This document shows positions 16,376 through 30,940 of a stretch of DNA of 64,000 bases, one piece after another. Within the stretch, counting starts at the first letter, position 1. Every line of letters begins with the position of its first letter. The position numbers and the translations under genes are program-made. The DNA is taken from assembly GCA_003612335.1 (NCBI GenBank), contig RAYO01000015.1, positions 1 through 64,000 on the forward strand, given 5' to 3'. The DNA comes from a bacterium 1xD42-67 (lineage in GTDB: Bacteria > Bacillota > Clostridia > Oscillospirales > Oscillospiraceae). The notes beneath the pieces are model-generated. The model ran no database searches and was not told the origin of the DNA. It saw nothing but the letters and a program-made list of their open reading frames with translations.

Positions 16376-16804
16376 TCAGCCCTCCGCCAGCAGCCGCAGG
16401 GCCTCCAGATAGCCCTCCAGGCCGCGGCCTTTGACGGTGGCGATGCAGGCCGCCCGGATGTAGGACACATGCCGGAACTCCTCCCGGCTGTCCGGGTCGG
16501 AGATGTGGACCTCCACCGCGGGGATGGACACCGCCTTCACCGCGTCCAGCAGGGCCACACTGGTGTGGGTGTAGGCCCCCGGGTTGATCACGATCCCGTC
16601 CACCTTGTCGAAGTACGCCTGTTGGATGGCGTCCACCAGGGCCCCCTCGTGGTTGGACTGGAAAAAGCTCACCTGGACGCCCAGCTCCTCCGCCTCGGCC
16701 TGGATCATGGACACCAGGCCATCATAGGTGGTGTGTCCGTAGATCTCAGGCTGACGGATGCCCAGCATATTCAAATTAGGGCCGTTGATCACCAGGATAT
16801 CCAC
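16376..16804 (-). CDS. aroQ: 3-dehydroquinate dehydratase, type II
   Basis: Dehydrates 3-dehydroquinate to 3-dehydroshikimate, the third shikimate step, in the cytosol. The 142 residues match dodecameric type II enzymes. ILVINGPNLNMLGIRQPEIYG carries the catalytic Tyr, NPGAYTHTSVAL the Asn and Thr ligands, and VEVHISDPDSREEFR the catalytic His. No ATG fits; a GTG six bases after GGAGGG begins homology, and this start overlaps the end of the aroE-aroK fusion by 29 bases. It is the last gene of the aromatic operon. Confidence 0.95.
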   Translation of the reverse strand: MDILVINGPNLNMLGIRQPEIYGHTTYDGLVSMIQAEAEELGVQVSFFQSNHEGALVDAIQQAYFDKVDGIVINPGAYTHTSVALLDAVKAVSIPAVEVHISDPDSREEFRHVSYIRAACIATVKGRGLEGYLEALRLLAEG

Positions 16805-18095
16805 AAAGATCCCTCCAGATCTTGGCGGCGGTCTCCTCCGCCGTCGTGTCGTTTCGGACAGACCGGTCCGCCGCCGCCTCATACAGGGGCAGCCGCGCCC
16901 GATACATCTCCTCCAGATCCCCGCTTTGGGAGAGGGGCCGGCCCTCTCTGGACAGCTGGCCCAGGACCCGGCGCAGGAAATATACCCGTCCCGTGCGGCG
17001 CAGGGCGGTCCGGTTCTCCGCTCGGAGCACCGCCCCGCCGCCGGTGGCGATCACCTGGCCGTTCCGGGCGCAGACCTCGGCCAGCATCTGGACCTCCAGC
17101 TCTCGGAAGGCCCCCTCGCCCTGAGAGGCGAAGATCTCCGGGATGGGCTTCCCGGCCCGGCGGACGATCTCCCCGTCCAGGTCCACAAAGGGCCTGCCGG
17201 ACAGCTCCGCCAGCGCCTGGCCCACGGTGGTCTTGCCGCAGCCGGGCATCCCCACCAGGACAAGGTTGGTCCGGTCCCGCCACAGCCGGGCGGCGATCCT
17301 CTCCGTCTCATCGGCGAGGATGGACCGGTCAAAGAACAGCTCCTCGGCCTGCACCGCCTGGGCCACCAGCATGGACAGGCCGCCAGTCCAGCGGATGCGC
17401 CGCCGGACCGCCTCCAGCGGCAGGCCGCGGCTCATATCCGCCTGCCGGCCCGGGTCCTCCCGATCCAGCTCCTCCGCCTGGAGCAACAGGCTCGTCCGGC
17501 CCGGGTTGTAGATCACGTCGGCCACCGCTCCCAGCTCGGGCAGGAGGGACAGGTCCACCGGCCGGCGGTCCATGTCGGGCCACATGCCCACTGGGGTGGT
17601 GTTGATCAGCACCTCCGCGTCGGCGTGGCGCCGGGGGAGGTCTTCATAGCTGTCCGGACCCGTCCGGGACACCACCACCGCCTCCCGGGCCCTCTCCCGC
17701 CGGGCGGCCGCCTGGGCGGTGAGGGACGCCCCCCCGCTGCCCAGGATCAGCACCTTTTTCCCCGTCAAAGAGATGCGCGCCCGGCGGAGCATATACAAAA
17801 AGCCGTCGATGTCGGTGTTATAGCCGTACAGCTTCCCGCTCCGGCGGACCAGGGTGTTCACACTGCCGATGGCCTCCGCCGCCGGGTCGATGACGTCACA
17901 GAAGGACATCACCTCCCGCTTGTAGGGGATGGTGACGTTCAGCCCCCCGATGTCTTCCCGGCGGAGGAAGTCCCCCAGCCGATCGGGCTCCAGCTCGATC
18001 AGGCGGTAATCCTCACAGCCCAGGGCCTGGTGGATGGGGACGGACCAGCTGTGCCCCAGCTTCCGGCCTAAAAGGCCATAGATCTTCTCCCCCAT
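16776..18095 (-). CDS. aroE-aroK: Fused shikimate dehydrogenase / shikimate kinase
   Basis: One 439-residue polypeptide carrying two consecutive shikimate-pathway activities. Residues 1-265 are AroE: a start GLLGRKLGHSWSVPIH, NVTIPYK with the catalytic Lys at about 59, NTDIDG with the catalytic Asp near 95, and the NADP-binding ILGSGGASLTAQ. From about residue 278 it is AroK: Walker A GMPGCGKTTVGQ, DLDGEI, and the kinase core IATGGGAVLR. Each half has all expected catalytic residues, so neither looks degenerate. It starts three bases after pheA ends and overlaps aroQ. The reactions are NADPH reduction of dehydroshikimate, then ATP-dependent phosphorylation of shikimate. Confidence 0.95.
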   Translation of the reverse strand: MGEKIYGLLGRKLGHSWSVPIHQALGCEDYRLIELEPDRLGDFLRREDIGGLNVTIPYKREVMSFCDVIDPAAEAIGSVNTLVRRSGKLYGYNTDIDGFLYMLRRARISLTGKKVLILGSGGASLTAQAAARRERAREAVVVSRTGPDSYEDLPRRHADAEVLINTTPVGMWPDMDRRPVDLSLLPELGAVADVIYNPGRTSLLLQAEELDREDPGRQADMSRGLPLEAVRRRIRWTGGLSMLVAQAVQAEELFFDRSILADETERIAARLWRDRTNLVLVGMPGCGKTTVGQALAELSGRPFVDLDGEIVRRAGKPIPEIFASQGEGAFRELEVQMLAEVCARNGQVIATGGGAVLRAENRTALRRTGRVYFLRRVLGQLSREGRPLSQSGDLEEMYRARLPLYEAAADRSVRNDTTAEETAAKIWRDLCGYPGDQRP

Positions 18096-18098
18096 GGA

Positions 18099-19235
18099 TC
18101 ACACTTCCGCATAGCCGCCCAGGAACTGGAACTGGGCGCAGGAGCGCTCCAGCTCCTCCAGCATCGCCAGGACGCTGGGGTCCTTCACGCTGGCCTCCAG
18201 CTCCAGGAAGAAGATGAACTCGAAGTCGCTCCCCGCCACCGGGCAGGACTCCAGCTTGGTCATATCGATGTCCAGCGCCGCCAGCTTGGACAGCACCTCA
18301 TACAGGGCGCCGGGCTTGTTGTCCAGGGCGATGATCAGGCTGATCTTGTTGGCCCCGGCGTAGATCACCGGCTCCTTGGTCACGCAGATGAAGCGGGTGT
18401 AGTTGTTGTCGCTGTCCTGGATGTCCCCATCGATGCGCTCCAGGCCGTAGAGGGCGGCACAGGGGTGGGAGGAGATGGCGGCGGCATGGGGATCCCCCCT
18501 CTCGGCCACCATCTTGGCCGCCGCCGCAGTGTTGGCGCAGGGGATCACCTTCACGTCCTTGAGCCCATTCAGGAATCTGGAGCACTGGCCGATGGCCTGC
18601 TCATGGGACCAGATCTCGGTGATGTCTTCCAGCCTGGTCCCGGGGAGGGCCAGCAGCTCGTGGCGGATACACAGGCGGGCGGACCGGACCACCGACAGGT
18701 CGTGCTCCTGAAGGAGCTGGTACACCGCCCGGACCGAGCCGTTGGAGCTGTTCTCGATGGGCAGGACGCCGAACTTGCACAGCCCGGACTCCACAGCGGA
18801 GACCACCGCCCCGAAGCTCTTCACATAGACGATGTTCCCCCGGGGGAAGAGACGGTCGCAGGCCACCTGGGAGTTGGCCCCCTCCACCCCCTGGCAGGCC
18901 ACCATCCCCGTCTGGGGGAAGATCTCGCCGCCGGCGGCCAGGGCGGCCTCCACCCGCCGGGCCACCTTGGCGGGGGCGGAGATCAGCTCCGCCTGGCGGG
19001 AGCGGGCCAGCTCGAAGAGGGTGGAATACAGATGATAGGCATACCGCTCCTTGTCTCCCGCCCTCTGGGCCACCTTGGCCAGGATCTCCCGCTCCCGGGC
19101 TTTGTTCAAAATGGGCAGATGGTGCTCGTTTTTGTAGGCGGCCACCTCCTCGCTCAGGGCCATGCGCTCCAGGAAGAGCTCCAGGAGCTGGTCATCGACA
19201 GCGTCAATCTTCGTGCGGATCTCAGAAAGTTCCAT
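18099..19235 (-). CDS. pheA: Bifunctional chorismate mutase / prephenate dehydratase
   Basis: A 378-residue P-protein that makes phenylpyruvate from chorismate. Residues 1-90 are an AroQ-type chorismate mutase (IRTKIDAVDDQLLELFLERM, and KAREREIL). The middle is prephenate dehydratase, ending with the SHEQAIGQCSRFL-type motif, and from about residue 285 an ACT domain (SLIIALDNKPGALYEVL, then TKLESCPV) provides feedback inhibition by Phe. One difference is SFGAVVSAVESGLCKFGVLPIE in place of the usual TFxDV region. A GGAGGG site lies five bases before the ATG, which overlaps the end of aroC by 14 bases. Confidence 0.95.
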   Translation of the reverse strand: MELSEIRTKIDAVDDQLLELFLERMALSEEVAAYKNEHHLPILNKAREREILAKVAQRAGDKERYAYHLYSTLFELARSRQAELISAPAKVARRVEAALAAGGEIFPQTGMVACQGVEGANSQVACDRLFPRGNIVYVKSFGAVVSAVESGLCKFGVLPIENSSNGSVRAVYQLLQEHDLSVVRSARLCIRHELLALPGTRLEDITEIWSHEQAIGQCSRFLNGLKDVKVIPCANTAAAAKMVAERGDPHAAAISSHPCAALYGLERIDGDIQDSDNNYTRFICVTKEPVIYAGANKISLIIALDNKPGALYEVLSKLAALDIDMTKLESCPVAGSDFEFIFFLELEASVKDPSVLAMLEELERSCAQFQFLGGYAEV

Positions 19236-20313
19236 GATCTCCCTCCAATAGTAAGTCTAACAGTACGGTGGCCGTCACCGCCTCCACCACAGGCACCGCC
19301 CGGTGGGCGATGCAGGGATCGTGGCGGCCGTGGATGGTCAGGTCCGTGTCCTCCATGGCGGACAGGCTGACGGTCTTCTGGGGCTGTCCGATGGACGGTG
19401 TGGGCTTTACCGCCACCCGAAGAGTGACGGGCATCCCGGTGGTGATGCCGCCCAAAATGCCGCCCGCGTGATTGCTCCCGGCGGATATCGTTCCGTTTTC
19501 TATGGTGAAGGAGTCGTTGTTCTTCGAGCCTCGGCGGGCGGCGGCGGAGAAGCCCGCGCCGAACTCCACCCCCTTGACGGCAGGGATGCCAAAGAGGGCG
19601 GCGGCCAGGCGGTTCTCCACCCCGTCGAACATGGGATCCCCCAGCCCGGCGGGGACGCCGATGGCGGCGCACTCGATGACCCCTCCCACGCTGTCCAGGG
19701 CGTCCTTCGCCGCCAAGATCGCGTCCTGCATCCGGGCCCCGTCGTTGTCGCTCAGGGCGGGGAAGGGCTTGGCGGCGACAGCCTCGAAGAGCTCCCTTGT
19801 GGGGCACAGGGGGAAGTGTTCGTCGCAGGCCGTGCCCACCGAGTCCAGGTGGGCCCCCACATAGATCCCCCGGCGGGCCAGGATCTGTTTGGCGATGCCC
19901 CCGGCGATACACAGGGGGGCGGTGAGCCGGCCGGAAAAGTGGCCTCCGCCCCGCATGTCGGCCAGACCCTTCCACTTCACCCAGGCGGTGTAATCGGCGT
20001 GGCCGGGGCGGGGCTTGTCGGCCAGCCCGGCGTAGTCGCCGGACCGCTGGTCGCTGTTGCGGATCATGGCGCACAGAGGTGCGCCGCAGGTGCGGCCGTT
20101 CTCCAGCCCGGAGAGGAACTCGGGCACGTCCCCCTCCTTCCGTGCGGTGGACAGGGAACTCTTCCCCGGCCTGCGCCGGTCCAGGAACCGCTGGAGCTCC
20201 TCCAGGTCGATCTCCTCCCCGGCGGGCAGGCCGTCCATCACCACGCCGATGGCCGTCCCGTGGGACTGTCCAAAGACGGACACCTTTAAGATCTTTCCAA
20301 ACTCAGAGGACAT
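19222..20313 (-). CDS. aroC: Chorismate synthase
   Basis: Converts EPSP to chorismate, needing reduced FMN. The 363-residue protein has the family signatures VFGQSHGTAIGVVMDGLPAG, RRPGKSSLSTARKE, HADYTAWVKW, RGGGHFSGR and the C-terminal RHDPCIAHRAVPVVEA. The frame extends 36 codons further upstream, but the ATG at 20313 begins the conserved N-terminus and sits at the aroA stop (11-base overlap). It is mid-operon, coupled to both neighbours by overlap. Confidence 0.97.
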   Translation of the reverse strand: MSSEFGKILKVSVFGQSHGTAIGVVMDGLPAGEEIDLEELQRFLDRRRPGKSSLSTARKEGDVPEFLSGLENGRTCGAPLCAMIRNSDQRSGDYAGLADKPRPGHADYTAWVKWKGLADMRGGGHFSGRLTAPLCIAGGIAKQILARRGIYVGAHLDSVGTACDEHFPLCPTRELFEAVAAKPFPALSDNDGARMQDAILAAKDALDSVGGVIECAAIGVPAGLGDPMFDGVENRLAAALFGIPAVKGVEFGAGFSAAARRGSKNNDSFTIENGTISAGSNHAGGILGGITTGMPVTLRVAVKPTPSIGQPQKTVSLSAMEDTDLTIHGRHDPCIAHRAVPVVEAVTATVLLDLLLEGDHGTF

Positions 20314-21529
20314 CGAAAATACCTCCCAGCCGTCTGTACTCCTCCCAGAAATCAGGGTAGGATTTTTGAACGCACTCCGCCCCCAAGAGGGTGATGGGCT
20401 CTCTGCACCGGGTGGCGGCAATGGCGGCCATCATGGCGATCCGGTGGTCGTTGCAGCAGTCCACTGTCACGCCCCCCGCCAAAGTATCCCGGCCCCAGAT
20501 CTTCAGGAAGTCCGGGCCCTCCTCCACCTGTGCCCCCAGGGCGTTGAGGGCCTGGGTCACAGAGGCCAGCCGGTCGCTCTCCTTCAGCCGCAGGCGGGCG
20601 GCGCTGCTCATATAGGTGGTGTATCCATCCCGCAGAGCCGCCATAGCGGCCAAAGGCGGCACCAGGTCGGGGCAGTCAGCAACAGGAAAGCCCATGTTTC
20701 GGGGCATGGCCAGTCTGCGATAGAACCAACTGAATTTCCGGTCGCCCTGGCATGAATACTTCGGCATACCTGATATCTCGACCGAATTGCCCAGAAACTC
20801 CGCTGCGTACCAGAAGGCGGCTTGGGACCAGTCGGCCTCAATGGTAAGGTCGCAGGGCTGGTAGACCTGTCCGCCCGGAATGACCCAGCCGGTGTCCTGT
20901 TCCCCTGAGGTAATACCAAACTTTTCCAGCACATTCTCCGTCATCATGACATACCCGGCGCTCTCCAGTGTGGAGGTCAGGACGATCTCGCTGTCCCCGT
21001 CCAGCAGGGGCAGAGCGCAGAGCAGTCCGGTGACGAACTGGCTGGACACGTTGCCGGGCAGGCGGTACTCCCCGGCGTTCCACTCCCCCCGAATGGTGAG
21101 GACACCGTCCTTTTGTTCGTAGGAAATGCCCTTCTCGTCAAAAATGTCGAAGTAGGGCTTCTGGGGCCGCTCCATCAGCCGGCCCCGTCCGGTAAAGACG
21201 CCGCCGTTGTTCAGCGTCAGCGCCAGGGGGATCAGAAAGCGGAGGGTGGAGCCCGACTCGCCGCAGTCCAGGTGAGGCAGCTCGGCGGGGTCCCATTCCC
21301 GGTGCCAGACCCCACTGACGTACAGGGTGTCCCCCTCCCGCTCCCACGCGCCGCCCAGAGCGGTGATGCAGCGCAGGGTGGCCTCGATATCCTGGGAGAT
21401 GGCCACATTTTGAATGGTGCTGGTCCCGTTGGTCAGCGCTGCGGCCAGGATGGCCCGGTGGGCGATGGACTTGCTGGGGGGCGGGGTGACGGTCCCCTCC
21501 AGAGGGCCGGGAGTGATGCGGATGTTCAT
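20303..21529 (-). CDS. aroA: 3-phosphoshikimate 1-carboxyvinyltransferase (EPSP synthase)
   Basis: Transfers the enolpyruvyl group from PEP to shikimate 3-phosphate. The 408 residues include the substrate-binding PPSKSIAHRAILAAAL, the LDCGESGSTLRFLIPLAL motif and the late KESDRLASV and CNDHRIAMMAA motifs. The ATG at 21529 forms an ATGA overlap with the aroB stop, giving translational coupling. An upstream in-frame ATG is rejected because it would lie inside aroB and homology begins at NIRITPG. Confidence 0.97.
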   Translation of the reverse strand: MNIRITPGPLEGTVTPPPSKSIAHRAILAAALTNGTSTIQNVAISQDIEATLRCITALGGAWEREGDTLYVSGVWHREWDPAELPHLDCGESGSTLRFLIPLALTLNNGGVFTGRGRLMERPQKPYFDIFDEKGISYEQKDGVLTIRGEWNAGEYRLPGNVSSQFVTGLLCALPLLDGDSEIVLTSTLESAGYVMMTENVLEKFGITSGEQDTGWVIPGGQVYQPCDLTIEADWSQAAFWYAAEFLGNSVEISGMPKYSCQGDRKFSWFYRRLAMPRNMGFPVADCPDLVPPLAAMAALRDGYTTYMSSAARLRLKESDRLASVTQALNALGAQVEEGPDFLKIWGRDTLAGGVTVDCCNDHRIAMMAAIAATRCREPITLLGAECVQKSYPDFWEEYRRLGGIFDVL

Positions 21530-22608
21530 TCCAGCGCCCACCCCGCTTCGATGACGGAACACAGCTCCGAGACGGGGATCGTTTTCAACTCACAGCGACC
21601 GATCTTGCTGGGCACTACGATGGTGATGCTGTCTCCCGCCCGCTTTTTGTCAGACAGGGCGGCCTGGGCCAGGGCCTCGGGAGGATACTCGGTGGAAGAG
21701 GGCAGTCCCAGGCTTTCCACGGCGCTCTCGATTCGTCCCTCCTCAAAGCACTGCTTCGCTTCGTCTGTCAGCCACCCCAGGTTCTCCGTGGCCCGGGCCA
21801 TGATGGCCAGCCCCGCCGCCACCGCATGGCCGTGGGGGATGGTGAAATCACTGCACTTCTCGATCGCGTGGCCCACGGTGTGGCCCAGGTTGAGCAGTTT
21901 CCGCTCCCCCTGTTCCTTCTCGTCCCGCTCCACCACGCCGGCCTTGTAAGCTGCGCACCGGGCGATGACTTCCTCCAACATAGATACTTTCAGCCCGTCC
22001 TCCATTTGGGCGAACAGCCGCTCATCACTCAGTACAGCCGTCTTGAGCGCCTCGGCGGCCCCGTCGGCAAAGACGTGGCGGGGCAGGGTCTTGAGGCAGT
22101 CGGTGTCGCAGAGGACGGCGGAGGGCTGCATGAAAGCCCCGGCCAGGTTCTTCCCGGCCCGCAGGTCGATGGCTGTCTTGCCCCCCACGGAGGAGTCCAC
22201 CGCCGCCAGCAGAGTGGTGGGCATCTGGACGTACTTCACCCCCCGCAGGTACAGGGCTGCGGCAAGCCCCGCCATGTCCCCGGTGACGCCGCCCCCCAGG
22301 GCGGCCACGCAGTCGGTGCGGGTGAGCTGCTCCTCCGCCAGGAACTCCAGGATCTTGGACAGGGTGTCGAAATTCTTGCTCCCCTCTCCGGCGGGGAAGA
22401 CATAGGCGCTGACCCGGAAGCCCGCGCTCTCCAAGCTGGTCTTTACCCGCTCCAGGTACAGCGGGGCCACGTTGCTGTCGGTCACCACCGCCATATGGCA
22501 CAGGGGCAGGACCTCCTTCAGCCGCGCCCCGCACTCCCCCAGCAGGCCGGGACCGATGGTCACATCGTACTCCGGGTCGGTGCGGACATGGATGGTCTGG
22601 ATGGACAT
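21526..22608 (-). CDS. aroB: 3-dehydroquinate synthase
   Basis: NAD- and metal-dependent cyclisation of DAHP to 3-dehydroquinate. The 360-residue protein shows GGGVTGDMAGLAAALYLRG, the NAD/metal motif QMPTTLLAAVDSSVGGKTA, NLGHTVGHAIEK with the metal-binding His, and PHGHAVAAGL. AGGAG is eight bases upstream of the ATG. It is separated from tyrA by 107 bases that hold two palindromic repeats, the only sizeable gap inside the operon. Confidence 0.97.
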   Translation of the reverse strand: MSIQTIHVRTDPEYDVTIGPGLLGECGARLKEVLPLCHMAVVTDSNVAPLYLERVKTSLESAGFRVSAYVFPAGEGSKNFDTLSKILEFLAEEQLTRTDCVAALGGGVTGDMAGLAAALYLRGVKYVQMPTTLLAAVDSSVGGKTAIDLRAGKNLAGAFMQPSAVLCDTDCLKTLPRHVFADGAAEALKTAVLSDERLFAQMEDGLKVSMLEEVIARCAAYKAGVVERDEKEQGERKLLNLGHTVGHAIEKCSDFTIPHGHAVAAGLAIMARATENLGWLTDEAKQCFEEGRIESAVESLGLPSSTEYPPEALAQAALSDKKRAGDSITIVVPSKIGRCELKTIPVSELCSVIEAGWALE

Positions 22609-22638
22609 GATGATCGCTCCTTGTTCGGTCAGATCGTC

Positions 22639-22710
22639 TGTAGGGGCGGATATGATCCGCCCATCGATCATTTTTCTATTTATGCAGGCGGATGATATCC
22701 GCCCCTGCAC
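22639..22710. repeat. Paired GGGGCGGAT hairpins between tyrA and aroB (copy 2)
   Basis: TGTAGGGGCGGATATGATCC begins one palindrome (22639-22662), and an inverted second one at 22684-22710 ends CCGCCCCTGCAC. Each folds on itself, and the two can also pair as arms of a larger hairpin around an AT-rich centre. It lies inside the aromatic operon transcript and could act as an RNA processing or stability element. Confidence 0.65.
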
Positions 22711-22715
22711 AAAGG

Positions 22716-23552
22716 TCAATTCCCTCCGGCGGCGGCCTTCTTCTCCCGGCCCTCCTTGAGGAGGTCGTGGAGACGCCGGGCGTCCCTGGTCTCCAGGGCC
22801 TGCCGGTACTCCTCCAGATGGCCGATGAGGATCCCAAGCTCATGGGTGAGGAAATCGGCGTCGTCCAGGAAGAGCTCGGTCCACATGTCCTCATCCAGCC
22901 GGGCCACCCGGGTCATGTCCTTGAAGCTGCCTGCGGAGAAGCCCCGGCGGCGCTGGGCCTCAGGGGACTTGACGTAGGCGCTGGAGACGATATGGGCCAG
23001 CTGAGAGGTGAAGGCGATGATCCGGTCATGCTCCTCGGGCTGGGAGAAGGTGAGCCGGGCGAAGCCCAGGTCCAGGAAAAAGGTCTGTAGGGTCTCCAGC
23101 AGCTTCATATCGGTGCGTTTGTCGGGGGTGAGGATCATAGAAGCCCCCACATACAGGTCGCCGGAGGAGGAGGTGAAGCCCCCCCGCTCCTTCCCCGCCA
23201 TGGGGTGGCCCCCGATATAGGCGAAGCCCTGTTCCTCGGCGATGGGGGCGATCTGCTCCACCACCGTCCGTTTCACCCCGCACAGGTCCACCAAAATGGC
23301 GGACTTGGGGATCTGGGGGGCGTGGGCCCTCACCCAGTCCACCGCGGCCTGGGGCCGGATGGCCACCAGGATCAGACCGCACCGGGCCAGGCCCTCCTCG
23401 TCCAGGGGACCGTCGATGGCCCCGCACATCCGGGCCAGGAGCATGGTCTCCTGGTCCAGGTCGATGCCGTAGACGGTGTGGCCGGTGCGCTCCTTGATGC
23501 TCTTGGCCATGGACCCGCCGATCAGGCCCAGGCCCACGATCCCTACATCCAT
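22716..23552 (-). CDS. tyrA: Prephenate dehydrogenase
   Basis: Oxidatively decarboxylates prephenate to 4-hydroxyphenylpyruvate for tyrosine. The 278 residues start with a Rossmann fold ([17 protein letters not shown]), followed by the catalytic His region IGGHPMAGKERGGF, and helical dimerisation segments (SQLAHIVSSAYV). No ACT domain is present, so feedback must occur elsewhere. It overlaps the aroF end by 10 bases. Confidence 0.95.
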   Translation of the reverse strand: MDVGIVGLGLIGGSMAKSIKERTGHTVYGIDLDQETMLLARMCGAIDGPLDEEGLARCGLILVAIRPQAAVDWVRAHAPQIPKSAILVDLCGVKRTVVEQIAPIAEEQGFAYIGGHPMAGKERGGFTSSSGDLYVGASMILTPDKRTDMKLLETLQTFFLDLGFARLTFSQPEEHDRIIAFTSQLAHIVSSAYVKSPEAQRRRGFSAGSFKDMTRVARLDEDMWTELFLDDADFLTHELGILIGHLEEYRQALETRDARRLHDLLKEGREKKAAAGGN

Positions 23553-24568
23553 ACCTGCCCCTCCATCTCCCGGATGGCGGCGTGGAGGGCCAGCAGCTTC
23601 TTCGCCAGGGGATCGAAGGCCTCAGGCTTGAGGGACTGGGGGCCGTCACACAGGGCGTGGGCCGGGTCGTTGTGGACCTCGATCTGAAGGCCGTCCGCCC
23701 CGGCGGCCACGGCGGCCATGGCCAGGGGGTCCACCAGCCAGTACTTCCCGGTGGCGTGGCTGGGGTCCACGATGATGGGCAGGTGGGTCAGCTTGCGGAG
23801 CACCGGGATCGCCGCCAGGTCCAGCGTGTTGCGGGTGTAGCTCTCGAAGGTGCGGACCCCCCGCTCACAGAGGATCACCTGCTCATTCCCCCCGGCCATG
23901 ACGTATTCGGCGCTCATCAGCCATTCCTCATAGGTGGCGGACATGCCCCGCTTGATCATCACCGGCTTGTCCTGATGGCCCACCGCCTTCAAAAGGTCGA
24001 AGTTCTGCATGTTCCGGGCGCCGATCTGGATCACGTCCACATCTTGGAACAGGGGCAGCTGGGTCACGTCCATCAGCTCGGTGACGATGGGCAGGCCGGT
24101 CTCGGCCCGGGCGGCCTTCAGATACTCGATCCCCCTCTCTCCCAGGCCCTGGAAGGAGTAAGGGGAGGTCCGGGGCTTGAAGGCGCCCCCCCGGAGCATG
24201 GTGGCCCCGCTGGCCTTGACGGCCTTGGCGATGGCCACCACCTGCTCTTCGCTCTCCACCGAGCAGGGCCCGGCCATGATGGTCAGCCCCCCGCCGCCGA
24301 TCTGGGCCCTCCCCGCCCGGACCACTGTGTCCTCGGGGTGGAACTTCCGGTTGGCGTTCTTGTAAGGCTCCTGGACCCGCTTCACATCCTCCACGATGTC
24401 CAGGGCGGCGATCAGGTCGATGTCCAGCTTGGAGGTGTCTCCCACCAGGCCCAGGATGGTGTGGGCCTCTCCGATGCTGGTGTGGACGGTGATGTCCTTC
24501 TCCCGGAGCCAGGCGATCAGGCTCTCCAGCTGGTCGCTGTCGTGGCCGTGCTTCAATATGACGATCAT
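23543..24568 (-). CDS. aroF: 3-deoxy-7-phosphoheptulonate (DAHP) synthase
   Basis: Condenses PEP and erythrose 4-phosphate, the first step of aromatic biosynthesis. The 341 residues have an N-terminal ferredoxin/ACT-like regulatory domain of about 65 residues ([18 protein letters not shown]), then the type I-beta barrel with [53 protein letters not shown] and the metal/His region [12 protein letters not shown]. This is the Thermotoga-type, feedback-regulated form. AGGAGG lies eight bases before the ATG. It is the first structural gene behind a Tyr/Phe leader attenuator. Confidence 0.96.
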
Positions 24569-24602
24569 TGCTGTTTCCTCCTTCATGATGGCGGGATAGT
24601 AC

Positions 24603-24635
24603 AAAAAAGACCTGCGGCCGGTCTGGCCGCAGGTC
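24603..24635 (-). terminator. Attenuator terminator of the aromatic operon
   Basis: On the minus strand, GACCTGCGGCC, loop AGACC, GGCCGCAGGTC, then six Ts. It lies between the Tyr/Phe leader peptide and aroF, so readthrough must be controlled. Upstream, GACCGA/TCGGTC (24647-24665) forms an alternative small stem, and TCTCGGTC at 24779-24786 can pair with GACCGAGA at 24660-24667. Confidence 0.88.
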
Positions 24636-24667
24636 GTCATGTACGATCGGTCTCTCTTGGACCGAGA

Positions 24668-24766
24668 TCACACGCCCGCATTTCCAGCCAAACCGAAACA
24701 AGCCTTACCTCCAAAGAAGGTAAAGCTAAAGTAGCGGTAGTAAGAGCTGCGGGCGATAACAGTCAT
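24668..24766 (-). CDS. Tyr/Phe-rich leader peptide of the aromatic operon
   Basis: A 32-codon open frame, ATG to TGA, directly upstream of an intrinsic terminator and aroF. It encodes MTVIARSS, then the aromatic cluster YYRYFSFTFF, then GGKACFGLAGNAGV. That is three Tyr and five Phe codons, with seven aromatic codons in a run of ten. A GAGAGGG ribosome site lies nine bases before the ATG. This is the hallmark of ribosome-mediated attenuation: stalling on Tyr or Phe codons when charged tRNA is scarce would change folding of the following RNA and prevent termination. Inferred from sequence; a T-box, the usual Firmicutes solution, is not seen. Confidence 0.88.
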   Translation of the reverse strand: MTVIARSSYYRYFSFTFFGGKACFGLAGNAGV

Positions 24767-24802
24767 ATCTCAGATCCCTCTCGGTCTTTCAAAACTACAC
24801 AC

Positions 24803-24831
24803 AGGATAACACTTTAGCGCGGAAAATGGAA
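24803..24831 (-). promoter_or_regulatory. Probable promoter of the aromatic operon
   Basis: On the minus strand, TTCCAT and TATCCT are separated by 17 bases, 37 bases before the leader peptide ATG. The -35 is weak, so other positions are possible. Confidence 0.45.
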
Positions 24832-24898
24832 CTGTGGATCCCTACAGATCCGCCGGCTTCTGCCCGCTTTTTTTGTGTGTCTTAGACAGGGATCCCGA

Positions 24899-24922
24899 GA
24901 GGGCACAGTGGGACGTGCCCTC
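24899..24922 (-). terminator. Hairpin after the sensor kinase gene
   Basis: GAGGGCAC/GTGCCCTC with an 8-base loop, just after the kinase stop on the minus strand. There is no T-run, so it is a weak terminator candidate. Confidence 0.35.
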
Positions 24923-24935
24923 CCGGGGGGAGCGC

Positions 24936-27296
24936 TCAGGACAGGGGGAAGGTCACCACAGCGGTGAACAGGTCGGCTTCGGTGGAGATGGTCAGCTCGC
25001 CGCCGCAGGCCCGGGTGAAGGAGTCGGCGATGGACAGCCCCAGGCCGGAACCGCCGTCGGTGCGGCTCTCGTCCCCCCGGACGAAGCGGGCAGTGTACTC
25101 GGCGCCCGGCTCCAGCTCGGCGGCGGAGGTGTTCCGCAGGGTGGCCACCGACCGGCCGGCCACCGTCTCCAGGGACAGATATACCCTTGAGCCGGGCAGG
25201 GAGTATTTCAGGGCGTTTCCGATCAGGTTCTGGAAGACCCGGTACAGCCGGTCGCTGTCGGCGGTGATGGGCACCTCCTCCTCGGGGATGGAGGTCCGGA
25301 GGATCAGACCGCTCTCGTCGATGGCCTGGGCCATGTCGGCCAAGGTCTGGCGCAATAACCGTGCATGATCGAGGCGCTCTAATTTGACCGGGAGTTGTCC
25401 CGAGGCCGCCTTGCTCACCTCAAAGACATCCTGGACCATAGACTTGAGCCGCTGGGCCTTCTCCCCTAAGATCGTGACATATTCGCTGGCCGGGGGCTCC
25501 AAGGGCTCTTGGGAGAGCAGCTCGGTGTAGCTGATGATGGATGTGAGAGGGGTCTTCAGGTCGTGGGACACGTTGGTCACCAGTTCCACCTTCATCCGCT
25601 CGCTGCGGGTGCGCTCCTCCACCGCCTGGTGCAGGCCCTGACCGATGTGGTCCAGGTCGTCGGCGATCTGATAGAGGTCGCTGTCCTCCTGTAAGTCCGA
25701 TCTCCTTTCCAGATCCCCCGCCCGAAGGGCCGCGGCCTGGTCCGCCACCGCCCCGAAGTCGGTCCACAGCTTCCGCTGCCGCCAAGCGGTCCAGACGTAC
25801 ACCGCCATCGCCAGCAGCCAGGGCAGGCCCAGCAGATTCCAGATGGCCCAGGTGGGCAGGTACAGCTCCAGGGTCTGGGCCACCAGGAGGGACAGCACCT
25901 CCAGCCACAGCAGGAGCAGGGCCAGCCCGAGGAGACCGTTCCTCCGGCTCAGCCGCCTTTGCAGGGGGTACTTGAGCTCCTGGACGGCCAGCATTCCAAA
26001 TACACCCTGTTTCCACGGCTTTCTATTATACCGCCAGTCATTGACGATCAGCAGGTACAGCCCCCAGAACACCGCCAGCAGGCCGGGCGTGTGGTCGGCC
26101 AGCTCCCGGAGGTACTCCTGGAACAACCAGCCGCCGTTCTCCTGGAGGATGGCCATCGCTATATCGATGTTGGTAGTATACTCCTCCGAGATGACCTGGG
26201 CATAGCCGTACTCCTGGAGGATGACGTCCCGCTCCTCGCCGGGGAGCTGATCCAGCATCTCCCAGTCCAAGGAGACGTCGCCGGGAACGGCGGTGACGCT
26301 GGGAACGGCGGCCGAGCTGGACTCCCCATAGGAATACGTGGGGGCGTAGGCGTAGGTCAGCTCCTGCCAGATCTCCCCCAGATACTCCGGGCGGGGCATA
26401 CAGAGGAACACCAGCAGCAGGGCGGCCAGCACCTTGACCTCGAACCAGACCTTGCCCGTCCCCCGGGCCAGGGCCTGGTCGGCCCGTTTTTTGTCCTGAC
26501 CCAGCAGGATATACACCAGGAACGCCCCCGCGCCCACACCCGTTCGGACAGCGTGGCCCATGATAGTTTTCCGGTAGTGGGTCAGGTTCCGCTTCAAGTA
26601 GTACAGCTCGTTGTACTGGTCGGAGCCGGTGCTGCCGTAGCTGCCCTTGATGAAGATCTGGGGCTCGTCGATCACCGCCATGGTCACCTTCACCTTGGAC
26701 CCCGCCTCGTCCACCGTGAAGTTCTTGTAGCCGGGGACATACCACTGATAGGGTTCGTCGATGCTCTCAAAGCGGTAGTAGCCGTCGCCATAGAGATCCA
26801 GCTCCGTGCCGTCCTTCCAGGCCCGGACCTTCTGCCCGTCGAACTGGAGGAGGAAGCCATATCCCTCGGGGAGCTGGGCGGCTGTCCCAGAGGCAGTCAA
26901 TGTCTCGCTGTTGCTGTAAAGGGTCTCCCCCTCCTTCTCCACACGGTAGAGGATGTTCTTGTCCTCCTTCATCCGTTCATGGGCCCCTTTGGCCCACCGC
27001 TCCGCGCCGGTGGAGGGTACCGGGCCGTTTCCGTCGTCCGCGCTGTAGCCGTAATAGCCGTAGGCCCAGCCCCCGGCCCCCATGGTAATGAGCCGCTCCA
27101 GCCGGGAGGAGACGAACCCCCGGAACTCCGTCGTGTCCCGCCAGTCCGAGGCGAAGCTGTCGGAGATCCACCGCCGGCTCCCGGAGGAGGTCAGCGCCGT
27201 GCCGAAGTACAGCGCCCCCTCCAGAATCATCGATACCCCCAGCAGGAAGGCCACAAAGCCTAAGATCGCCTTACTTTTTTTCCATTTTGTATCCAA
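24936..27296 (-). CDS. Membrane sensor histidine kinase
   Basis: A 786-residue kinase. An N-terminal anchor (ILGFVAFLLGVSMILEGAL) is followed by a large external region, then several hydrophobic helices around residues 245-500. The cytosolic part contains the phospho-acceptor NVSHDLKTPLTSIISY (His about 578), the N-box FQNLIGNALKYS near 694 and the G-box DGGSGLGLSIADSF. The long multi-helix input domain is atypical. The start appears to be TTG, because the first hydrophobic helix begins ten residues later and no ATG fits, but the ribosome site is weak. The gene overlaps the response regulator stop by 26 bases. The signal is unknown. Confidence 0.92.
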   Translation of the reverse strand: MDTKWKKSKAILGFVAFLLGVSMILEGALYFGTALTSSGSRRWISDSFASDWRDTTEFRGFVSSRLERLITMGAGGWAYGYYGYSADDGNGPVPSTGAERWAKGAHERMKEDKNILYRVEKEGETLYSNSETLTASGTAAQLPEGYGFLLQFDGQKVRAWKDGTELDLYGDGYYRFESIDEPYQWYVPGYKNFTVDEAGSKVKVTMAVIDEPQIFIKGSYGSTGSDQYNELYYLKRNLTHYRKTIMGHAVRTGVGAGAFLVYILLGQDKKRADQALARGTGKVWFEVKVLAALLLVFLCMPRPEYLGEIWQELTYAYAPTYSYGESSSAAVPSVTAVPGDVSLDWEMLDQLPGEERDVILQEYGYAQVISEEYTTNIDIAMAILQENGGWLFQEYLRELADHTPGLLAVFWGLYLLIVNDWRYNRKPWKQGVFGMLAVQELKYPLQRRLSRRNGLLGLALLLLWLEVLSLLVAQTLELYLPTWAIWNLLGLPWLLAMAVYVWTAWRQRKLWTDFGAVADQAAALRAGDLERRSDLQEDSDLYQIADDLDHIGQGLHQAVEERTRSERMKVELVTNVSHDLKTPLTSIISYTELLSQEPLEPPASEYVTILGEKAQRLKSMVQDVFEVSKAASGQLPVKLERLDHARLLRQTLADMAQAIDESGLILRTSIPEEEVPITADSDRLYRVFQNLIGNALKYSLPGSRVYLSLETVAGRSVATLRNTSAAELEPGAEYTARFVRGDESRTDGGSGLGLSIADSFTRACGGELTISTEADLFTAVVTFPLS

Positions 27297-27966
27297 TGCC
27301 CCACACCACCTTCAAATAGTCTGGCTCACGAGGGTCCAGCTCGATCTTCTCCCGGATGCGCCGGATGTGGACCATCACCGTGTTCTCGGAGGACCAGGCG
27401 TCCTCCCCCCACACCCGGCGGTAGATCTCTTCCGCAGGGAAGACCCGGCCCAGATTGCGCATGAGCAGGTCCACGATGCCCGTCTCGATGTTGGTCAGGC
27501 GCACCGGCTCGCCGTCGGCGGTGAGGGCGCGTCTGTCCGGGTCGTATTCCAGCCGGCCGCTGACGATGATCCCGGCAGGGGCGGTGTCCACGCCCCCCAG
27601 ACGGGTATACCGCCGCAGCTGGCTGCGCACCCGGGCCACCAGCTCCTGGATCCCAAAGGGCTTGGTGACGTAGTCGTCCGCCCCCATGCTCAGGCCCAGG
27701 ACCTTGTCGCTCTCCTCGCTCTTGGCCGACAGGACGATGATGGGCAGGTTCCGCCGCTCCCGGATCCGCAGGACCGCCGACAGGCCGTCCAGCCGCGGCA
27801 TCATCACGTCCATGATGATCAGCCGCAGGTCGGGGTCCGTCGCCTTGTCCAGCGCCTCCATACCGTCGTAGGCCCGGAGGACCCGCCACTCCTCCTTCTC
27901 CAGGGCGGCGGCGATGGCCCCCACGATCTCCCGGTCGTCGTCCACTACCAATATCGTATCTCGCAT
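27271..27966 (-). CDS. OmpR-family response regulator
   Basis: A 231-residue DNA-binding regulator. The receiver domain has the acidic pair VVDDDRE, phospho-acceptor Asp in IIMDVMMPRLDG, and the conserved Lys in DDYVTKPFG. The C-terminal winged helix has RLTNIETGIVDLLM, VHIRRIREKIE and GIGYKME. Of two possible ATGs, the one at 27966 has GGGAGGAG eight bases upstream. It is co-transcribed with and overlaps its cognate kinase. Three TCTTAC repeats just upstream are candidate autoregulatory sites. Confidence 0.95.
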   Translation of the reverse strand: MRDTILVVDDDREIVGAIAAALEKEEWRVLRAYDGMEALDKATDPDLRLIIMDVMMPRLDGLSAVLRIRERRNLPIIVLSAKSEESDKVLGLSMGADDYVTKPFGIQELVARVRSQLRRYTRLGGVDTAPAGIIVSGRLEYDPDRRALTADGEPVRLTNIETGIVDLLMRNLGRVFPAEEIYRRVWGEDAWSSENTVMVHIRRIREKIELDPREPDYLKVVWGIGYKMEKK

Positions 27967-27997
27967 CAGATCCGCTCCTCCCTCGTTCACTGGGCCC

Positions 27998-30717: not shown

Positions 30718-30743
30718 CGTCTGGAGATGTGGTATGATATCCC

Positions 30744-30898
30744 CGCTCCAGGTGCCCGGGCGGCAGCGTCCGGGAGAATAGGGAAGAAAGACACGGTCCC
30801 GCCGCTGTGAGAGGGGAGCCAGCTCCAAATATGCCACTGGGAGACCGGGAAGGCGGAGACTGGCGGCGATCCTCAAGTCAGAAGACCTGCCTGGAGCG
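30744..30898 (+). ncRNA. Cobalamin (B12) riboswitch
   Basis: The closing stem CGCTCCAGG/CCTGGAGCG encloses the conserved blocks of this class: GGTGCCCGGGCGGCAGC, GAGAATAGGGAA, CCGCTGTGAGAGGGGAGC, the B12-box region TATGCCACTGGGAGACCGGG and AAGTCAGAAGACCTGCC. It precedes a DUF4430 protein and an ECF S component. No classical terminator follows. A short GCGCTCGC/GCGAGTG pairing near the ribosome site suggests translational control. A TATGAT box at 30733-30738 is a possible -10. Confidence 0.93.
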
Positions 30899-30940
30899 CT
30901 CGCTCTTATGTTGCGAGTGACAACGATAGGAGGTCATATC

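Follow-up and report, generated by a model that had tools for sequence, protein, structure and literature searches.

A probable ribosome-mediated attenuator with Tyr and Phe control codons ahead of a clostridial aromatic amino acid operon

In the trp, pheA, and his attenuators of proteobacteria, the leader peptide abounds in the amino acid under control, the RNA has alternative 1:2, 2:3, and 3:4 pairings, and a terminator precedes the first gene. Amino acid operon control in Clostridia is usually ascribed to T-boxes, which bind tRNA directly and do not need a reading frame; leaders under TRAP control carry (G/U)AG repeats in tandem, to which this protein binds. The preliminary description of the locus reported here likewise held that Firmicutes usually use T-boxes or TRAP, and the T-boxes agree with 11 T-box matches in the genome concerned, but leader attenuators of Firmicute his and ilv genes are in print. 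As given in the extracts of the sources on which we draw, His-leader attenuators have been predicted by comparison in the Bacillus cereus group, Eubacteriales, and Erysipelotrichales (PMC9413887; for bacilli also PMC2965389), and his and lys leader cases in Firmicutes are named elsewhere (PMC4833913). The ilv-leu operon of Staphylococcus aureus is described, in a similar extract, as having a Leu-rich attenuator peptide, a terminator, and a proposed antiterminator, with genetic support (PMC5794164). Closest in position is uORFC-13-1 of Acholeplasma, a frame upstream of aroF with at least one Phe codon that adjoins a terminator and for which attenuation is proposed; the extract of that source gives 24 sequences, all from Acholeplasma or environmental samples (PMC8632094).

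We describe a locus in a 64,000-nucleotide stretch of the genome of a member of the Oscillospiraceae (contig RAYO01000015.1), referred to here as the window; according to the sequence and its ORF list, the leader, the terminator, and aroF all lie on the minus strand. Comparative sequence evidence and fold models together suggest, with a probability that we put at about 0.85, that the feature is a ribosome-mediated transcription attenuator of an aromatic operon, most likely read through only when Tyr or Phe runs short. It combines a conserved leader frame and its ribosome site with a run of Phe and Tyr codons, a terminator before aroF, a candidate antiterminator that lies 3' of the control codons and pairs with the terminator 5' arm, and, in the window and its close relatives, a 1:2 hairpin. 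The encoded peptide is MTVIARSSYYRYFSFTFFGGKACFGLAGNAGV, with the core YYRYFSFTFF and no Trp codons. The preliminary description gave no strand, and everything that it listed as visible is present: the 32-codon frame, its ribosome site, this core, the 11-bp terminator, the six Ts, and aroF. The elements are as follows, in the order of transcription, where A1 denotes an alignment of 31 sequences, the window plus 30 relatives with an aroF at least 70% identical.

24826 to 24831, minus strand: putative -35 box TTCCAT, from the alignment (TTCACT in many relatives)
24803 to 24808, minus strand: putative -10 box TATCCT, from the alignment (TATGCT in many relatives)
24779 to 24786, minus strand: GACCGAGA, a proposed long-range partner that overlaps the ribosome site; present in the sequence
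24775 to 24780, minus strand: leader ribosome binding site GAGGGA, 8 nt 5' of the ATG
24766 (ATG) to 24668 (TGA), minus strand: leader peptide frame, 32 codons plus TGA, read from the sequence
24748 to 24755, minus strand: region 1, the left arm of the outer helix, CGCCCGCA; from A1
24713 to 24742, minus strand: control codons 9 to 18, Tyr Tyr Arg Tyr Phe Ser Phe Thr Phe Phe, read from the sequence
24735 to 24738, minus strand: ACCG in the Tyr10-Arg11 codons, second part of 1:2 (RNAalifold columns 60-63 with 118-121)
24719 to 24727, minus strand: left arm of the inner hairpin, AGCTTTACC, Ser-Phe-Thr codons; from A1 and the free RNAalifold consensus
24701 to 24709, minus strand: right arm of the inner hairpin, GGTAAGGCT, Gly-Lys-Ala codons; from A1 and the RNAalifold consensus
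24686 to 24694, minus strand: region 2, the left strand of the antiterminator, GGTTTGGCT, Gly-Leu-Ala codons 25-27; from A1
24673 to 24680, minus strand: right arm of the outer helix, TGCGGGCG, which pairs with region 1; from A1
24660 to 24667, minus strand: TCTCGGTC, directly after the leader stop; present in the sequence
24647 to 24665, minus strand: post-stop hairpin TCGGTC ... GACCGA, from fold models (TGGTTT/AAACCA counterpart in many relatives, with weak statistics)
24620 to 24635, minus strand: region 3, the terminator 5' arm GACCTGCGGCC plus the loop AGACC; from the terminator scan and alignment
24609 to 24619, minus strand: region 4, the terminator 3' arm GGCCGCAGGTC; from its pairing with region 3
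24603 to 24608, minus strand: T6 run of the terminator, from the terminator scan

The two putative promoter boxes are spaced by 17 nt in the 27 sequences aligned upstream of the leader, and from their position an RNA start is expected near 24796; a consensus promoter scan of the region found no promoter. The region folds more stably than its shuffles (z = -3.94, equalled by none of 200). Directly upstream of the attenuator, within 24936-27990 on the minus strand, there is a sensor histidine kinase gene, identified by a family match, together with a putative response regulator gene, identified by sequence reading.

The terminator spans 24635-24609 with 11 pairs, the loop AGACC, and then T6, and four terminator-like sites are found in 501 bases on both strands compared with 0.3 in shuffles. 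From the leader stop to aroF there are 99 nt with this strong terminator in between, and aroF begins at 24568 behind its own ribosome site. The operon of eight aromatic genes that had been claimed is borne out by matches to aromatic-pathway families for all eight downstream ORFs, of which aroF, aroB, aroA, aroC, and aroQ exceed curated cut-offs, and tyrA, pheA, and the aroE-aroK fusion fall under them:

23543 to 24568, minus strand: aroF, DAHP synthase, 341 aa (NCBIfam NF006421, 492 bits versus a cut-off of 335)
22716 to 23552, minus strand: tyrA, prephenate dehydrogenase (E 2.5e-45, under the curated cut-off)
21526 to 22641, minus strand: aroB, 3-dehydroquinate synthase (TIGR01357, over cut-off; start chosen in the analysis)
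20303 to 21526, minus strand: aroA, EPSP synthase (TIGR01356, over cut-off; start chosen in the analysis)
19222 to 20319, minus strand: aroC, chorismate synthase (TIGR00033, over cut-off; start chosen in the analysis)
18099 to 19235, minus strand: pheA, chorismate mutase-prephenate dehydratase (clear match, under the curated cut-off)
16776 to 18095, minus strand: aroE-aroK fusion, shikimate dehydrogenase plus kinase (clear match, under the curated cut-off)
16376 to 16804, minus strand: aroQ, type II dehydroquinase (TIGR01088, over cut-off; start chosen in the analysis)

Among the matches listed, none of the eight ORFs matches a Trp-branch family. The window also carries a cobalamin riboswitch at 30733-30908 on the plus strand (106 bits).

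The leader frame is open in all 31 sequences of A1, at a length of 24 to 37 codons, with a purine-rich ribosome site at a roughly equal position and with 5 to 12 Phe plus Tyr residues per leader (median 9). A1 is without L053, L057, and L098, which by hand were found not alignable or leaderless, L055 (69.94% identical), and exact duplicates; the L051 leader was assigned by hand. The segment from the ATG to the GLA codons remains in one phase in 29 of the 31 sequences, the segment after the stop is spread over three phases, and pN/pS is 0.64 in frame versus 1.30 and 0.86 in the shifted frames. Leaders that pass a strict test, at least six F/Y within 10 residues plus a ribosome site, are present in 30 of 34 related upstream regions, one of which is that of the window itself, with 0.00 expected from dinucleotide shuffles. 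Because the frames are open, the phase is kept, and pN/pS is low in frame among these relatives, the leader is very probably translated, and selection seems to act on its composition more than on its exact sequence. The arrangement originally proposed, a Tyr/Phe leader and terminator in front of an operon for the common pathway plus tyrA and pheA, is well supported by this conservation.

Several pairings are conserved as well. In A1, the 3:4 terminator is paired in 99.0% of cells and shows double changes at 7 of 10 pairs, and the in-frame inner hairpin, GCTTTACC with GGTAAGGC, is paired in 97.2% across the 31 sequences; these two are found in the free RNAalifold consensus, from which the outer helix is absent. 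The outer helix (in the window, GCCCGCA joined to TGCGGGC) is paired in 74.8% of cells with double changes at all seven pairs, is shifted in some relatives (CATGCGC with GCGCATG in L016, for example), and in its best version per sequence beats shuffles (p <= 0.05) in 11 of 31. None of 500 column shuffles reaches the covariation score of the whole A1 structure. The RNAalifold consensus also pairs ACCG with CGGT at 24695-24692, the start of region 2, and this helix would be a further means of holding region 2 when no ribosome is stalled. GCGGG at 24679-24675, in the right arm of the outer helix, doubles as the second part of region 2.

The 2:3 antiterminator joins GGTTTGGCT to the loop and upper 5' arm of the terminator and is paired in 97.8% of A1 cells, with 82.4% for its second part; sliding the partner by one to three columns lowers the overall pairing from 92.3% to 25-51%. 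A compensatory swap is seen in L056, where a G-to-C change in region 2 is matched by a C-to-G change in the loop. Region 2 hardly varies, and covariation in 2:3 is therefore limited and only moderately exceeds that of shuffles: its score is reached by 2 of 500 column shuffles, and its three double-change pairs, versus 1.5 expected, are a count reached by 81 of 500.

These in-frame helices, together with the 2:3 antiterminator formed with the arm and loop of the terminator, replace the switch put forward in the preliminary description, which set a long-range pairing of two 8-mers against a local hairpin of GACCGA with TCGGTC. Both 8-mers exist, but in swapped order, GACCGAGA being upstream of the frame and TCTCGGTC after the stop. 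Their pairing has a probability of at most 0.16 in any modelled state and beats shuffles (p < 0.05) in 4 of 27 sequences, including that of the window, and we reject it as the switch; it may hide the ribosome site. The local hairpin is a frequent feature of the relatives, but only 2 of 27 sequences exceed their shuffles; in the window, when no ribosome sits at the stop, its P is 0.71-0.99 in most modelled states and 0.22 in one. The alignment with relatives that had been recommended as a check thus upholds the leader frame but leaves both proposed stems weak against shuffles.

In the mechanism that we propose, RNA polymerase and the leader ribosome would advance together, and scarcity of charged tRNA-Tyr or tRNA-Phe would stall the ribosome at codons 9-18, covering region 1. 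Region 2, freed by the stall, would capture region 3 as it emerges, the terminator would fail, and the eight genes would be transcribed. With both charged tRNAs plentiful, the ribosome would reach the stop and mask 8 of the 14 region 2 bases, on the assumption that its footprint extends 15 nt 5' and 14 nt 3' of the first P-site base, and the terminator would form. Without translation, the 1:2 helices would hold region 2 and transcription would stop too.

Folding snapshots with the same footprint give P(2:3) for RNA that extends to the terminator loop, before region 4 emerges, as 0.01 with no ribosome, when the outer helix has P 0.94 in the window, and 0.00 with a ribosome at the stop, versus 0.89 for a stall at Tyr9, 0.16 at Tyr12, 0.94 at Phe13, and 0.54 at both Phe15 and Phe18. 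With half of region 4 out, the values are 0.87 for Tyr9, 0.17 for Tyr12, 0.00 for Phe13, 0.01 for Phe15, and 0.00 for Phe18, and only the Tyr9 stall retains the antiterminator; 2:3 is lost in the Phe stalls because the outer helix re-forms behind the ribosome (P 0.85-0.97). The early Tyr codons thus look like the more effective sensor in the modelled window, and the model casts doubt on a response to Phe alone. Once the RNA is complete, the terminator prevails in every modelled state (at least 0.91), and antitermination would therefore have to be kinetic.

The best conserved residues of the peptide in close relatives are GKA and GLA, which is what one would expect of a TnaC-like nascent-peptide arrest in which the C-terminal GKAxFGLAE responds to free Phe or Tyr within the exit tunnel of the ribosome. 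However, the bases of these codons are the ones that pair in the inner hairpin and the antiterminator, and the Phe codon in the left arm is TTT in 30 of 31 sequences and TAT in one, never TTC, although the leaders taken as a whole contain 40 TTC and 118 TTT codons. Distant loci replace the motif, yet they retain their aromatic runs and segments complementary to the loop. The choice of codons goes with the RNA helices, and we therefore judge a conserved peptide function less likely, and arrest of this kind is very improbable. It is a most unlikely prospect, too, that the leader is a translated small gene whose stop or reinitiation boosts aroF translation, with a terminator that is simply constitutive: leader genes before structural genes are widespread (PMC4833913, in extract), but here the stop is separated from aroF by 99 nt and a strong terminator, the aromatic codons are clustered, and there is pairing between the leader and the terminator loop.

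A T-box, in which the leader would bind uncharged tRNA directly, would be in keeping with the genome, where four of the 11 T-box matches exceed the curated cut-off, and with T-boxes before aroF in 5 of 39 distant families and also, about 0.6 kb upstream, in L123. The window has none at gathering score, however, and Rfam gives none within 24540-24900 even at E up to 10, a region occupied by the frame that is open in all 31 aligned sequences; we reject this identity, for which the chance appears close to negligible. No T-boxes are found at nine leaderless loci from a set of further loci, the best 80 of 590 matches. One T-box of the genome lies just past the window, at C108:66898-67089, and leader-peptide and T-box control appear to coexist in a single genome. 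The Rfam search produced no matching family for the attenuator itself, and three matches in the leader region (E up to 10) are chance-level and belong to other families.

Leaders with Phe and Tyr codons are not confined to close relatives. A genus search gave an aroF match in 45 of 61 genomes, and the 80 further loci come from named genomes and partly overlap the genus set. Strict leaders occur at 48 of 73 further loci (0.15 expected from dinucleotide shuffles) and in none of 39 other families across the phylum (0.05 expected), among which a looser test, counting Trp and accepting five aromatics if a terminator follows, finds one. By the looser test, 107 of 175 loci have Phe/Tyr leaders before aroF versus 2.3 expected from mononucleotide shuffles, a share that is no census because the loci were picked mostly by similarity to the window's AroF. 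On a tree of the 175 AroF proteins, built by FastTree only and with many weak forks, the leader needs 23 changes compared with 54 under shuffled labels (none of 500 as low), and it is absent from one clade of 37 (support 98). A leader is also present in a Kiritimatiellae-labelled MAG (L105), and frames without a detectable ribosome site, scored negative, are present in Lentisphaerae-type MAGs (L081 and L097); these occurrences may reflect mis-binning.

The pairing logic extends to these loci in part. Across 95 distinct leader loci, a mean of 86% of the terminator loop pairs with the leader 5' of it, versus 45% with shuffled leaders, and at 84 of the 95 a locus's own leader pairs better than the mean of swapped leaders. 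The overall 2:3 duplex energy (mean z -1.53; 18 of 95 loci with none of 60 shuffles as good) is by itself a weak test, and loop pairing and core helices were used for that reason as well. The core 2:3 helix of loop plus arm has a median p of 0.08, with p <= 0.05 at 42 of the 105 leader-plus-terminator loci, and a KS p of 5e-22 over these 105, related loci not being independent. Region 2 starts downstream of the first aromatic codon at 88 of 91 loci, at a median distance of 48 nt, and in 38% of the 91 a ribosome at the stop would not reach it with its footprint. A universal 1:2 pairing in distant loci was rejected, the result being at chance level (11 of 89, KS p 0.17).

A covariance model, R1, has one match in its own genome, by construction, and matches in 39 of 150 genomes of the family at E 0.01 and 44 of 197 genomes of the order at E 0.001. 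Sixty-nine R1 loci were examined, among 86 matches listed, and 55 lead into aroF. The other downstream genes are those for an AMP-binding CoA ligase (3 loci), aroB (2), tyrA (1), and a trpB-like gene (1); seven loci have none of these, all with E at or above 1.7e-4 and one of them (L257) ending at a contig end. At L248 and L251 the leader stands before aroB, and at L229 before tyrA, as it does before aroF, each being the first gene. In L256 (G457:C39, coding strand) the leader MNRTLGTAFYWFWFSFTDSFGKVDLRCDEA has Trp codons (FYWFWFSF) and precedes a gene whose sequence, read by eye, resembles that of a tryptophan synthase beta chain, and it is possible that amino acid specificity has changed within the family. 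Tyr-rich leaders with a like antiterminator logic precede an acyl-CoA ligase gene in L239, L241, and L243, for instance MLNRFYAGYYYGFVYYYGTGFNKVG, whose region 2 overlaps the stop codon. The ligase is nearest by sequence to feruloyl- and fatty-acyl-CoA synthetases and falls under the cut-off of each of 25 families among the matches listed. We reject a leader before this ligase as a general trait, with 3 of 33 loci, all three found by R1, and 0 of 30 other relatives.

The aromatic entry enzyme of many uncultured gut and rumen Clostridia is thus best explained as being under a leader-peptide attenuation that is absent from Rfam, and the codons of each leader suggest the amino acid sensed by its operon. 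We lean toward the view that Phe/Tyr attenuators form an old family, as yet without a name, from which the control of one large group of clostridial DAHP synthases descends. On this view, the family reached rumen and gut lineages that bear the labels of other phyla together with aroF, by inheritance or by transfer, and was re-used before tyrA, aroB, a Trp-codon trpB-like gene, and an acyl-CoA ligase in hosts otherwise dependent on T-boxes. A gene with some relatives under a leader and others under a T-box also lends itself to comparison. Transcription and translation are said not to be coupled in Bacillus; attenuation needs this coupling, and a working clostridial case would therefore bear on the question.

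The mechanism is already known, being that of the trp, phe, and his type; what appear to be new are the family, its spread, and its use in a few genomes before tyrA, aroB, a trpB-like gene, and a CoA ligase. The literature searched (mostly open-access) gave, among the matches listed, no description of an aroF leader peptide in Clostridia. T-boxes have the same physiological role and stand before aroF in some relatives, but are absent at the window's aroF. Going by the extracts of the sources cited, the Firmicute His leaders share leader-peptide attenuation with this locus, but with His codons and before his operons or hisS/hisZ, and the S. aureus ilv-leu leader is likewise a Firmicute leader peptide, but with Leu and Ile codons and for a branched-chain operon. 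As described in its own extract, uORFC-13-1 resembles the aroF leader in position, Phe codon, and terminator, a comparison by description only. As in the proteobacterial trp, pheA, and his attenuators, there are a leader peptide, alternative helices, and a terminator ahead of the first gene. In contrast to these, the aroF leader mixes Tyr and Phe codons and matches no Rfam family, its region 2 is part of the reading frame and pairs with both the loop and the arm of the terminator, and it would control the common pathway together with both branches.
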